From positions 1 through 59,621 of the forward strand of contig PBMX01000005.1 in assembly GCA_002722935.1 (NCBI GenBank): a DNA stretch of 59,621 nt, read 5' to 3'. A model generated the notes under the pieces. The model ran no database searches. It had not been told where the DNA came from and worked only from the letters and a program-made list of their open reading frames with translations. The DNA comes from Phycisphaerae bacterium (GTDB lineage: Bacteria > Planctomycetota > Phycisphaerae > Phycisphaerales > SM1A02). This document shows, piece by piece, positions 13,107 through 18,278 of the stretch; the first letter of the stretch is position 1, and each line of letters begins with the position of its first letter. Both the position numbers and the translations under genes were made by a program.

Positions 13107-13718
13107 GTGTCAACGAATCACGCCCTGATCCTGATTGGATTCCAGAACGACTACTTCGCTCCGAACGGGGTGCTTCGCAACGTCATGGAAAATGGGGACC
13201 GGAACGACCAGGTCGTTTCACGGACGGTGTCCCTCATCAGGTCGCTCATGGATACCTCCGTGACGATGCTTGCCGCACCAATCATCTTTACCGACGACTA
13301 CAAGGAATTGAGGCAGGCAGACGGAATCCTGGCCGCCATCAAGGATTCGGGTGCCTTGCGGGAGGGGCGGGAGGGAGCAGGTGTCATCGATGAACTCCAC
13401 GAGTTCAGTGATCGGATCATCGAGGTTCCCGGCAAGCGTGGCCTCAACGCCTTCTCGAATACCACCCTTGCGCGTGAATTGATCAGCCACGACATCACGG
13501 ATGTGGCCATCGCAGGTGCTGGAACATCGATTTGGGTCGATTCAACCGGACGTACGGCGTACCAGATGGGGTACAGGGTGAACATCCTGGCTGATTGCAT
13601 TTCCGCTCGAACGAGCATGGAACAGGACATATTCTGCTCGAAGGTATTTCCAACCTATGCATCAGTTGTCGATTCGACGGCCTATCTGGAAAGCATCAGG
13701 CGGAACATGACCGGATGA
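13107..13718 (+). CDS. isochorismatase-fold protein, predicted catalytically inactive
   Basis: GTG at 13107: VSTNHALILIGFQNDYFAPNG...; C-terminal AGAGTSIWVDSTGRTAYQMGYRVNILADC aligns with the family G-x-T-x-x-C-V-x-x-T-x-R-x-A-x-x-x-G-Y signature, but Cys is Trp and the IDxQ Asp is Gly. Confidence 0.8.
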   Translation: MSTNHALILIGFQNDYFAPNGVLRNVMENGDRNDQVVSRTVSLIRSLMDTSVTMLAAPIIFTDDYKELRQADGILAAIKDSGALREGREGAGVIDELHEFSDRIIEVPGKRGLNAFSNTTLARELISHDITDVAIAGAGTSIWVDSTGRTAYQMGYRVNILADCISARTSMEQDIFCSKVFPTYASVVDSTAYLESIRRNMTG

Positions 13719-15163
13719 GCAGGCGAACATACAACCCGGAAGAGTTGGCTTCGACGATGCCTCCGGACATGCTTCCGACGCAGTCGGTCAGGCCGCTGAC
13801 GGGTCCTGATGTGTCCTGGCTCCTGGATGCGACGAGGAGAAAGGATTCGGAGTCCCCACTTCCCCCGCTACGACTCGGTGAAGACGAGGTCGATCTCGAC
13901 CTGGTCATCAAGGACATGGTCGGAGAGGGTGGCCTCGGGATGGTCTCCCTTGCGATGCAGTCGTGCCTCAACAGGAACGTTGCCGTCAAGCAGGCCAGGT
14001 CCGATCGCAGGAACACCGATGCCGAGATCCAACTTCGCAAGGAGGCCGAGTTGATGGGACAGCTCGAGCACCCCTCGATTCCGCCCATCCACGTCCTGGG
14101 GAGCGATTCGGAGGGTCACGCCGTCCTTGTCATGAAGTTCGTATCGGGGGATTCATGGGGCGATGTGCTCGACAGGGACATGAAGTTGACGAAGAACCGG
14201 GACGCTGAACGTGTGCACCTGAGAAAGCATCTGGAGATTCTCTGTCGAATCGGAGAAGCCCTCGCCTTCGCCCACGGTCGTCGAATCATCCACAGGGACA
14301 TCAAGCCGGACAACGTGGTCGTCGGAGAGTACGGAGAGGTCTACCTGATCGACTGGGGAATCGCCGCCGAGGTCGGGCAGGATGGTTGCTACAAGCCGAC
14401 CGGGTTCGCGGGAACACCCGCCTACGCAGCCCCGGAAATGCTTGATCGAGATGCAATGCTCGATGAGCGAACCGATGTCTACCTCCTTGGGTCCACCCTC
14501 TACCAGGTGGTGACCGGAGATGCCCCCCACCCGGGAAGCAGCGTGGCCGAAGTGTTCGATCACGTCGTTTCGAATCCGACACCGGACTCGATCCAACAGG
14601 CACCTCTTCCGCTTGCGGAGATCTGCATCAAGTCGATGGCCGAGGATCCTGCCGACCGGTACCAGAGTGTCAGGGAGATGCTCGAGGCGGTTCGTCACTT
14701 CATGGATCACGGCGATACGGCGGAACTCTTTGCCCGGAGCGCCGAGACGATGGTGGCCCTGAAAGCCCTGGTTGATTCACAGAAGGTCGACCCGGATCAG
14801 GTCGACACGCTCGGTCAGCGGTGTCGATACGACCTCGAACGGGTTCACCAGGCGTGGCCTGGAAATGATGATGTCACAACCATGTTGTCCGATTGCCTCC
14901 TGCTGCTCTGCGATCACGCGATCGAACAGAACCGTATCGGGGCCGCTCGAATGCTCCTGACCGAGCATAAGCAGATCGGAAAAGGCGACCCGGCGGACAT
15001 CTACAGGAGGCAGGACAGCATCGAGGATCTCGTGGACCAGATGATTTCCCAGAACGATGAACTTTCGGTCGGAATCCAGGTCTCGCTCGTCGAGCAGATT
15101 TCGGCGCTGTCCGCGGAATACGAGGATCTCAAGAAGGCATTCGACGATCTCAGGGGCGGGTGA
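13715..15163 (+). CDS. serine/threonine protein kinase with helical C-terminal region
   Basis: GEGGLGMVSLA, NVAVKQA, HRDIKPDNVVV, LIDWGIA (DWG in place of DFG), GTPAYAAPEM, ERTDVYLLGSTLYQVVTG; ATGA overlap with the isochorismatase-fold gene. Confidence 0.93.
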   Translation: MSRRTYNPEELASTMPPDMLPTQSVRPLTGPDVSWLLDATRRKDSESPLPPLRLGEDEVDLDLVIKDMVGEGGLGMVSLAMQSCLNRNVAVKQARSDRRNTDAEIQLRKEAELMGQLEHPSIPPIHVLGSDSEGHAVLVMKFVSGDSWGDVLDRDMKLTKNRDAERVHLRKHLEILCRIGEALAFAHGRRIIHRDIKPDNVVVGEYGEVYLIDWGIAAEVGQDGCYKPTGFAGTPAYAAPEMLDRDAMLDERTDVYLLGSTLYQVVTGDAPHPGSSVAEVFDHVVSNPTPDSIQQAPLPLAEICIKSMAEDPADRYQSVREMLEAVRHFMDHGDTAELFARSAETMVALKALVDSQKVDPDQVDTLGQRCRYDLERVHQAWPGNDDVTTMLSDCLLLLCDHAIEQNRIGAARMLLTEHKQIGKGDPADIYRRQDSIEDLVDQMISQNDELSVGIQVSLVEQISALSAEYEDLKKAFDDLRGG

Positions 15164-15181: not shown

Positions 15182-16438
15182 TCAGGGGCAACTTCCCCAG
15201 GCACCGATGACCTCGATGAGGTCCAGCACGTCGACGACCGCATCGCCGTTGACATCCGCCATGCAGGATGGCTCGCAGTCGTCACAGGATCCTCCAGCCG
15301 TCCAGATTCCGCCCAGTTCAGCACAGGTGATCTCACTCAGCTGCGAGCAGCCCGTGCCCACGCAGCATGACCCGATTGAGGATGTGCAGGATTCACAGTC
15401 ACTGCCTTCGCCGAGCCAGATGGCGTCTTCCGAACCGACACAATCCTCCTCGACGACCTGACTGCAGTTCTCTCCAAAGCAACAGGCTCCCATCGAAGGT
15501 GACAACAGGGTGGAGTGATAGAAGCCCGCATCAAGATCAAGCACGCCATGGAGGCTGATCGGTGGTTGTGAAAGTCCATACTCCTCGCTGCCCCAGCATG
15601 CAATGGTTTCATCGGATTGAAGCACGAGGCTGTGAAGATGACCCGCCGCCACGACCGTGACGGAGCCCAGTTCGGCGGGTACATCGCATTGCCCACGGTT
15701 GTTTCGACCCCATGCCACGACCGATCCGTCATCGAGAAGTGCCAGAGAATGGTCGCCACCTGCGGAGAGATCGATGACGATGCCGATATCCGCCGGGACG
15801 TCACACTGGCCCATGTCGTTTCGTCCCCACGCCACGACGGTGCCGTCCCCGAGAAGTGCAAGGGAGTGATTGTTTCCGGCTGATACCTGCACAACGGTTG
15901 ACAGGGATGGTGGGCTGGATTGCCCGTAGGTGTTGCTTCCCCAGCAGGTCACGGACCCATCATCGCGAAGAGCGATGGAATGTCGCTCACCGCCGGAGAT
16001 CCCGATCACGTCTCCAAGTGAACCCGGGACATCGCATTGCCCATCGGTGTTCCATCCCCAGCAGACGACTGCTCCCGTCGACTTCAGCGCCATGGTGTGC
16101 CTGGAACCACAGGCTATTTCCACGACTCCGGCGAGGGCCGGCGGTACATCGCATTGCTGCTGGCTGTTGGAGCCCCAGCAGGTGACCCTGCCGTCACCCA
16201 GGAGGGCGGCAGTGTGGTATCCACCCGCCGCAACGGCCTCGACCGGCGGCATGTCCTCGGGCACATCGCACTGGCCATTGTTGTTCCTGCCCCAGCATGA
16301 AACGTCAGCACTCGCCATGGCGGGCGACAGCAGGATGATTACTCCAATGATTGATTGGAGGCGGTGAATTCGACTCATCACGTCCCCTCTTGGATTCCCC
16401 TTCAATCCAAAGAATCCGCCGAATCCGGAGCAAGTCAA
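15182..16438 (-). CDS. secreted RCC1-repeat protein with tandem Cys modules and dockerin-like C-terminus
   Basis: About seven repeats of (S/T/V)xWGxNxxGQCDVP...HSLALLxDGxV; two CC...C...GxxW...C..C modules; terminal ADVNGDAVVDVLDLIEVIGAWG; signal peptide MSRIHRLQSIIGVIILLSPAMASA. Confidence 0.88.
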   Translation of the reverse strand: MTCSGFGGFFGLKGNPRGDVMSRIHRLQSIIGVIILLSPAMASADVSCWGRNNNGQCDVPEDMPPVEAVAAGGYHTAALLGDGRVTCWGSNSQQQCDVPPALAGVVEIACGSRHTMALKSTGAVVCWGWNTDGQCDVPGSLGDVIGISGGERHSIALRDDGSVTCWGSNTYGQSSPPSLSTVVQVSAGNNHSLALLGDGTVVAWGRNDMGQCDVPADIGIVIDLSAGGDHSLALLDDGSVVAWGRNNRGQCDVPAELGSVTVVAAGHLHSLVLQSDETIACWGSEEYGLSQPPISLHGVLDLDAGFYHSTLLSPSMGACCFGENCSQVVEEDCVGSEDAIWLGEGSDCESCTSSIGSCCVGTGCSQLSEITCAELGGIWTAGGSCDDCEPSCMADVNGDAVVDVLDLIEVIGAWGSCP

Positions 16439-16454: not shown

Positions 16455-18278
16455 TTGGGTTTCCGGTACGACTGGCCTGCTCACATGCTGTTGTTCCTGT
16501 CAATATGGGACCCGAATCGATCCATTCCCCCGGCGAGTTCGGATGCGATCGAGGTGGGTTGCACCCTCCTGGAACCCGCTCCCTGTGTATTCTCTGTCAT
16601 CCCACCCGCGACCTCGACAACCACCGCCGATGCCACGCATGTCATTCCATGGCATTCCGGGGATCTCCATGAGTCCATCGATGGACTGGATGCATCCGAT
16701 CAACATGTTTCATTGATCGGGAGAGGCCGTTCGGCCGTGGTCTGGCGTATCGGTCGTGAAGATGAACAGGCGATTGCAAGAAAGGTCTTCCAGGGAGACC
16801 CGCTTGCCAATGCGCTTCACTGGATCGCCAGTGGTGCGTCGAATCCCTATGGATGGAATACCGATGCCGTCGACGCGGCGGTATGCAGGAGGCGCATTCT
16901 TGGACGACTGGTCAAGGTGTGGCTGGGTGACCGTGTTCGACTTCCGGCACTGTTGGGATCGGGGCAGGAAACGGAAACCGGGCGATGCTGGATCGACATG
17001 GAACTGATCAGGGGGCGCGGCCCACAACTCCGCCATGTCGATCAAGAAGATCAGGGTGCAGAGTCGTTGGAACTCTGGAACGACATCATGAAGCCGCTCC
17101 AGCGGCACCTCGCCTCATCCGGTTTCGACGGCCTCCCCTGGCAGGCTGGACTTGGACAGCCGGTCGCGATGAGCAACTTTCTTCGCGAGGACAACTCCGG
17201 TGGGTCGGGCGCTTCCTGGGTCTGGGTCGACCTGGAATCGGGTATCCCCGCGATTCTTCCGATGAATCCCTGGAGATTGCTCACCTACTACCTTCCCCGT
17301 TCGTTTCGACACGGACACCTCCTGTTCGACGATGTCAATGTCGACAGGCTCGAGTCCTACCTCAGGGATGAAGCCTCCAGGCTTGAAGCGGCCCTTGGCC
17401 GAAGCAGCTATCAGCAACTCCTGGATGACACGAGGCAACTCCGCGCATCCCAGGACCGGTGGCACCGGGCAGGAAGGCTCGAGCGGGGCATCGCGTGCTG
17501 GGTTGCTCGGGGACGGATCACCAATGAGGAGGCCTGCTGGTACCTGGAACGACCTGTTCACTGGATGGGAAGAATGGTTCGCGAGGTGTTCCATCGCGGA
17601 GTGAAGTGCTTCCCGCGTCTCGCTCGCTGGACCTGGTCATGGATCCGTCCGCGAAGACTGTTCCATGCCGCCGTCACATGCAGTCGCTTCATCTCATCCC
17701 AGCAATGGCGTGCACGATTCGCCCGTTCCGTCATCCGCCGGAGGATCAGGGCCTGGAAGCACAGGCGGCAGTTGTCCCCCGAGCAGGCAATGCGACTTTC
17801 GAAGCATGCACGAAGTGACGAGGCGGCCGACTACCTGACGGACTTCGGAATGCATGTGGCGATCAAGATCCCGGTGAAGATCACGGAGTGGGTCATCTTC
17901 CCGGCCCTCTTCGCGGCGGGGATGATCGGTGAACTGACCCTGGTGCTCGGCATCGCGCTCGGGGGCATGATTGCCCGGAGTCTCTACACGCTGTGGCGAA
18001 TGGGGCAGGCGTTCATGCGACGACGGGAACTTCCGTGGGTCGCCCTGGGAGTCGGAGCGCTTCCGATCGTCGGAAATGCCGCCTACCCGGCCCAGGTGCT
18101 CTGGACGAGTGGCCGACGCGACCACGACGTGGCAAGGTTCATTCTCGTGGACATCATTACTTCACTTGGGCGAAAGATGCCGGTGTGGGGTGGGCCGGAC
18201 ACGATGACCGAGCACTGGTTCAACAGGTGTTCAGCCCTGCCGCTTCGTTGGCTGAGCAGGCGAGGATCGGCCGGGTAG
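16455..18278 (+). CDS. kinase-like N-terminal domain fused to a C-terminal membrane domain
   Basis: Gly-rich loop-like SLIGRGRSAVVWRIG, possible Lys in ARKVF, WVWVDLESG resembling a metal-binding Asp motif; hydrophobic VIFPALFAAGMIGELTLVLGIALGGMIA. Confidence 0.6.
   Translation: MGFRYDWPAHMLLFLSIWDPNRSIPPASSDAIEVGCTLLEPAPCVFSVIPPATSTTTADATHVIPWHSGDLHESIDGLDASDQHVSLIGRGRSAVVWRIGREDEQAIARKVFQGDPLANALHWIASGASNPYGWNTDAVDAAVCRRRILGRLVKVWLGDRVRLPALLGSGQETETGRCWIDMELIRGRGPQLRHVDQEDQGAESLELWNDIMKPLQRHLASSGFDGLPWQAGLGQPVAMSNFLREDNSGGSGASWVWVDLESGIPAILPMNPWRLLTYYLPRSFRHGHLLFDDVNVDRLESYLRDEASRLEAALGRSSYQQLLDDTRQLRASQDRWHRAGRLERGIACWVARGRITNEEACWYLERPVHWMGRMVREVFHRGVKCFPRLARWTWSWIRPRRLFHAAVTCSRFISSQQWRARFARSVIRRRIRAWKHRRQLSPEQAMRLSKHARSDEAADYLTDFGMHVAIKIPVKITEWVIFPALFAAGMIGELTLVLGIALGGMIARSLYTLWRMGQAFMRRRELPWVALGVGALPIVGNAAYPAQVLWTSGRRDHDVARFILVDIITSLGRKMPVWGGPDTMTEHWFNRCSALPLRWLSRRGSAG

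Follow-up and report, generated by a model that had tools for sequence, protein, structure and literature searches.

PncA, biuret hydrolase, RutB, and N-carbamoylsarcosine amidase share the isochorismatase superfamily fold. All are active Asp/Lys/Cys hydrolases, and we know of none that partners a protein kinase. Isochorismatases of the EntB/PhzD type use a catalytic Asp and do not need the Cys. By analogy, the closest precedent for a regulatory protein of this fold is CrcA (PA1677) of Pseudomonas aeruginosa, which has Ser in place of the nucleophilic Cys and acts by binding a regulator (PMC10213629). Its other two active-site residues are reported to be conserved (PMC10213629). The likeness drawn here comes from that description: CrcA binds Crc, and the protein considered below is proposed to bind a kinase. 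In the literature covered, from which subscription papers were mostly absent, we found no description of a kinase-linked isochorismatase-fold family of the kind presented below.

The gene pair studied lies on the forward strand of a 59,621-nucleotide stretch of DNA from a Phycisphaerae bacterium (contig PBMX01000005.1), referred to in full as the window. The upstream gene (13107..13718) has a GTG start and encodes an isochorismatase-fold pseudoenzyme of 203 amino acids, here called Iso. The downstream gene (13715..15163) encodes a Ser/Thr protein kinase of 482 amino acids (PF00069, 130.6 bits). As the earlier note had proposed, the Iso stop codon overlaps the kinase start as ATGA (13715..13718), exactly in coordinates and frames; relatives have overlaps or short gaps. 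The pair is syntenic in a sister genome (G001), with 77% identity for Iso and 79% for the kinase, and a gap of 40 bp before the kinase gene. Between the two pairs, dN/dS is 0.15 in iso and 0.10 in the kinase gene. Since these are low, and the pair is conserved, decay of either gene looks unlikely. No second PF00857 gene was found in the window organism's genome, which is 65% complete. Further along the window are genes for an RCC1-repeat protein (15182-16438), whose C-terminal end resembles a dockerin on visual inspection, and for a 607-residue product with no Pfam match (16455-18278). The latter is conserved in G001, and its N-terminal part is, by eye, somewhat like a kinase glycine loop.

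The predicted Iso fold is intact, as had been claimed. PF00857 matches at 90.9 bits (cut-off 27) over nearly the full length of the model, and the AlphaFold2 prediction is confident (pLDDT 93.7). The best match to this model in the PDB, found with Foldseek, is 3kl2 from Streptomyces avermitilis (TM 0.88, 31% identity). Proteins of the 3kl2 type are also the nearest outgroup in our tree. Aligned to 3kl2, which itself has Glu/Lys/Cys at the catalytic positions, and to members with the usual Asp, Iso reads Gly11/Lys110/Trp143. The same G/K/W is retained in G001. Hence, Iso belongs to PF00857 by fold and domain, without the Asp/Lys/Cys triad of the hydrolases above. With Gly11 at the Asp position, it is not a true isochorismatase of the EntB/PhzD type either. 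The earlier note had read Asp to Gly, Cys to Trp, and a retained Lys, and the alignment agrees; an intact triad was sought elsewhere in the alignment and none was found. In PncA of M. tuberculosis, activity is absent or very low after either the conservative Asp8Glu change or Cys138Ala (PMC3025910). Given the G/K/W triad and these mutant losses, we consider the window protein probably catalytically dead.

The two losses need to be told apart. The change from Cys to Trp is peculiar to the window's genus, while Asp to Gly is common to a whole clade. At position 11 (codon 13137..13139), Gly is found in 132/132 clade members, a set selected by that very residue, and D or E in 18/20 outgroup sequences. 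At position 143 (13533..13535), 129/132 have the nucleophilic Cys, and Trp occurs only in genomes G000 and G001, where the neighbouring Val139 is also changed, to Gly or Ser. The triad Lys110 (13434..13436) is Lys in 119/132 and Arg in 11/132. Two residues are characteristic of the clade. Ser141 (13527..13529), two positions before the nucleophile, is found in 122/132 and replaces D/N/E (D/N/E/H/Q in the outgroup). Arg168 (13608..13610) is found in 130/132, and the outgroup has no conserved Arg at this point. A clade-specific Cys177 is also kept in Iso. Note that most of the clade retains the full G/K/C/R set, and that Iso retains Lys110, Ser141, and Arg168. This loss of acidic residues and gain of basic ones suggests that the old active site of the clade could hold an anionic ligand. 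In Iso, Trp143 could fill the pocket, and ligand sensing may have been lost. Clade members that keep the Cys may have residual or different chemistry.

Strong Iso homologues occur in about ten genera among 181 genomes of the window's family. The gene directly downstream encodes a Ser/Thr kinase in five genera (g1, g18, g34, g35, and g55). In three others (g13, g6, and g54), its product is a histidine kinase. Neither is near iso in g22. Overlaps between iso and the kinase gene are often 4 bp in this family. Three Phycisphaerales loci (L018, L056, and L059) have iso with no kinase or helix of the type described below nearby. Several genomes with a Ser/Thr kinase have two tandem iso genes upstream of it. 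The second copies in L015, L052, L054, L055, L058, and L063 have lost pocket residues and are still conserved. Those of g34 and g55 lack the Cys and R168, and mostly the Lys; in the two pairs measured, second copies are under purifying selection. They are perhaps hetero-oligomer partners.

A scan of the wider collection found 80 iso loci, with examples in Cyanobacteriota, Pseudomonadota, Verrucomicrobiota, Acidobacteriota, Actinomycetota, and Myxococcota. The scan used alignment A3, alignment A1 being too diverse for this. In the 69 loci tallied, the same-strand neighbour of iso is a histidine kinase gene in 63 and a Ser/Thr kinase gene in one, with many ATGA overlaps. The rest comprise a fusion (L138), a Ser/Thr kinase gene upstream (L117), a locus near a contig end (L098), and two with histidine kinases on the opposite strand (L089 and L125). 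In three verrucomicrobial loci, a helix-bearing histidine kinase is encoded on the opposite strand at a distance of 2-3 kb (L087:4199-6478, L089:8597-10207, and L099:7821-9269). The fusion, from Desulfogranum mediterraneum, is a single protein with the order iso-PAS-PAS-HisKA-HATPase-REC. Note that one A3 scan pattern contains the Gly, which biases the scan's counts of this residue. Hence, all PF00857 genes of eight genomes were examined. Here, 8/8 Gly-type genes are coupled or fused to a kinase, compared with 0/16 others directly adjoining one (Fisher p 1.4e-6). Similarly, no kinase was detected alongside three 3kl2-type genes (L183, L184, and an Embleya relative), unlike the Gly-type. We conclude that the kinase-coupled Gly-type clade spans several phyla, and that Iso has its Gly, R168, adjacent kinase gene, and docking-type helix. 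The earlier note had suggested a functional tie between a pseudoenzyme-like partner and the kinase, to be abandoned if homologues did not neighbour one. Nearly every clade member is kinase-adjacent, so this pairing stands.

The window kinase is a Hanks-type Ser/Thr kinase (PF00069), with a catalytic domain at residues 66-316 (13910..14662). The Lys, alpha-C Glu, HRD Asp, Asn, DxG Asp, and APE Glu are present in 20/20 Iso-coupled Ser/Thr kinases; in the window kinase, DFG reads DWG. The best NCBIfam match of the window kinase is NF033483, of the PknB type, and both have a full catalytic set. The score of 182.5 bits is far below the equivalog cut-off of 450 and, unlike PknB-type kinases, the window protein has no detected PASTA domain. 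Instead, there is a C-terminal helical region (14663..15052) followed by the docking-type helix; the AlphaFold2 model of residues 312-482 is all helical (pLDDT 84.9). Towards the N-terminus is a motif, LASTxPPDxxPTxTxRP (13745..13795), conserved in many Phycisphaerales partners. Clear matches to it were found solely in the Iso-coupled kinase, in 5/7 genomes.

Ten histidine kinase partners of Iso proteins contain, by Pfam, PAS, HisKA, and HATPase domains, often with REC and Hpt. Genes for REC-EAL or REC-GGDEF proteins lie downstream of some of these pairs (L100:8985-10280, L113:4264-5478, and L104:8075-9712), which hints at c-di-GMP output in the histidine kinase branch. In several phyla, a carbamoyltransferase and methyltransferase protein of ~1260 residues is encoded near iso and its histidine kinase gene (L088:8445-12224, L138:1816-5691, and 12 further loci). 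This hints at a carbamoyl-type signal in the same branch. Though found in 14 loci, the protein was rejected as a general partner, since a search of nine genomes from the window's family detected no PF16861.

Common to the Iso-coupled histidine kinases is a segment at the N-terminus, immediately before PAS, that reads (E/D)LHxQIQYRLxExL. In the L138 fusion, it directly follows the isochorismatase domain. A 25-residue query made from this helix gave one match per genome in five genomes, always in the Iso-coupled kinase, with a weak match in G578 (E 0.14). In the fetched loci, 76/79 helix matches are within 500 bp of iso, a count from a model trained on 51 of those same kinases. The helix was not detected in some histidine kinase partners (L017, L173, and L182). 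Turning to the window kinase, a profile match to this N-terminal helix marks residues 447-472 (15053..15130) as a putative docking site for Iso, with the sequence NDELSVGIQVSLVEQISALSAEYEDL. Corresponding C-terminal helices of Ser/Thr kinases read NELSTQIQYKLMEELQ in L158/L159 (25 bits), DEISTQIQYRL in L160, DELSTQVQHALLDRL in L121, and DELSVGIQVSLVEQI in the window. As a single sequence, the window helix scores 3.0 bits, and 2000 shuffles reach 9.3. The profile of the window's Ser/Thr kinase clade scores 32.3 against the histidine kinase helix profile. In comparison, 200 column shuffles gave at most 15.2. Elsewhere in these histidine kinases, the best unrelated stretch scored 13.6, and paralogous Ser/Thr kinases gave 9.8. 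The match is significant solely as a family profile. In the AlphaFold2 model of the C-terminus, the motif lies within a single long helix, preceded by several others. On the profile evidence, the putative docking helix of the histidine kinases appears to be present in the window Ser/Thr kinase too.

In the tree, the main Gly clade branches apart from 3kl2 and from the members with Glu (support 99/100); L182, a long-branched Gly-type sequence with a histidine kinase, falls outside it. The Iso-coupled Ser/Thr kinases form one clade with four Myxococcota paralogues (100/99). Many separate origins of the coupling to Ser/Thr kinases were considered and set aside: the AU test does not reject a single clade, either for the Phycisphaerales set (p 0.588) or with L158-L160 included (p 0.462). 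The iso neighbour in G208 (L216:343-2940) encodes one 866-residue protein with the order STK-helix-HisKA-HATPase-REC; the search for further such intermediates in the order of G208 took in 2 genomes. This protein suggests that a Ser/Thr kinase joined in front of the helix and histidine kinase, and that the histidine kinase was lost later.

Our preferred reading, to which we assign a probability of roughly two in three, is that Iso is a catalytically dead subunit, docked to its kinase through this helix and governing what the kinase puts out, the Ser/Thr kinase form being derived from the histidine kinase form. In the common form, Iso would act with a PAS histidine kinase that has the helix, also written ELHxQIQYRLIExL, just before PAS. 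Docked on this dedicated helix, the protein would set kinase output, probably in response to a small ligand, likely an anion, held in the former active site. Physical docking we infer from the shared helix; the ligand, and the direction of any effect on kinase activity, are likewise presumed. A Ser/Thr kinase would have replaced the histidine kinase as the partner of Iso in part of the Planctomycetota and Myxococcota. The simplest route would be fusion of a Ser/Thr kinase ahead of the helix and histidine kinase, then loss of the histidine kinase part, with the helix remaining at the Ser/Thr kinase C-terminus. If this presumed order and direction of steps is right, the window pair is a derived form, with its pocket changed further by the replacement of Cys with Trp.

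Other explanations share parts of this evidence. Iso could be a pure scaffold: bound to the kinase, it would determine where the kinase lies or how it assembles, and no ligand would be sensed in the window organism. The replacement of Cys by a Trp that could fill the pocket, the neighbouring change of Val139 in G000 and G001, and the purifying selection on g34 and g55 second copies that lack the Cys, R168, and mostly the Lys would all fit. We nevertheless think this unlikely, because Iso retains Lys110, Ser141, and Arg168, and most clade members keep the whole G/K/C/R set. It is improbable that Iso is an enzyme of altered chemistry, with the kinase reporting or regulating turnover. The Lys and Cys do persist in most relatives, and Iso has the clade-specific Cys177. 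However, neither the Cys mechanism nor the Asp-dependent one of isochorismatases has all its required residues in Iso, and the two PncA mutants are nearly inactive (PMC3025910).

The earlier note also raised phosphorylation of Iso by the kinase, and the operon-like layout with an intact Ser/Thr kinase would suit this. Because the usual partner of the family is a histidine kinase, this is no general explanation, and the helix common to both kinds of kinase argues rather for docking; we judge phosphorylation very improbable. Finally, unrelated genes can share operons, and a few orphan iso genes exist, so the two genes might be neighbours by chance with no functional link. We give this almost no weight. 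The pairing with kinases in several phyla, the naturally fused L138 protein, a helix specific to Iso partners, and the contrast of 8/8 with 0/16 genes argue strongly against it.

The docking subunit that we favour may be part of something larger, although we hold this at a little below even odds. Dead isochorismatase-fold sensors of an anionic, perhaps carbamoyl-type, metabolite would form a widespread and undescribed class of kinase input. One portable helix would connect them to two unrelated kinase superfamilies, and the living STK-helix-HK intermediate would record the handover. If so, kinases of several phyla use a metabolic-enzyme fold as a dedicated input subunit, and a single accessory sensor has passed between histidine and Ser/Thr kinases with its docking helix kept. 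The helix makes the docking idea directly testable. It would also give a likely role to proteins that a superfamily match alone would label as cysteine hydrolases.
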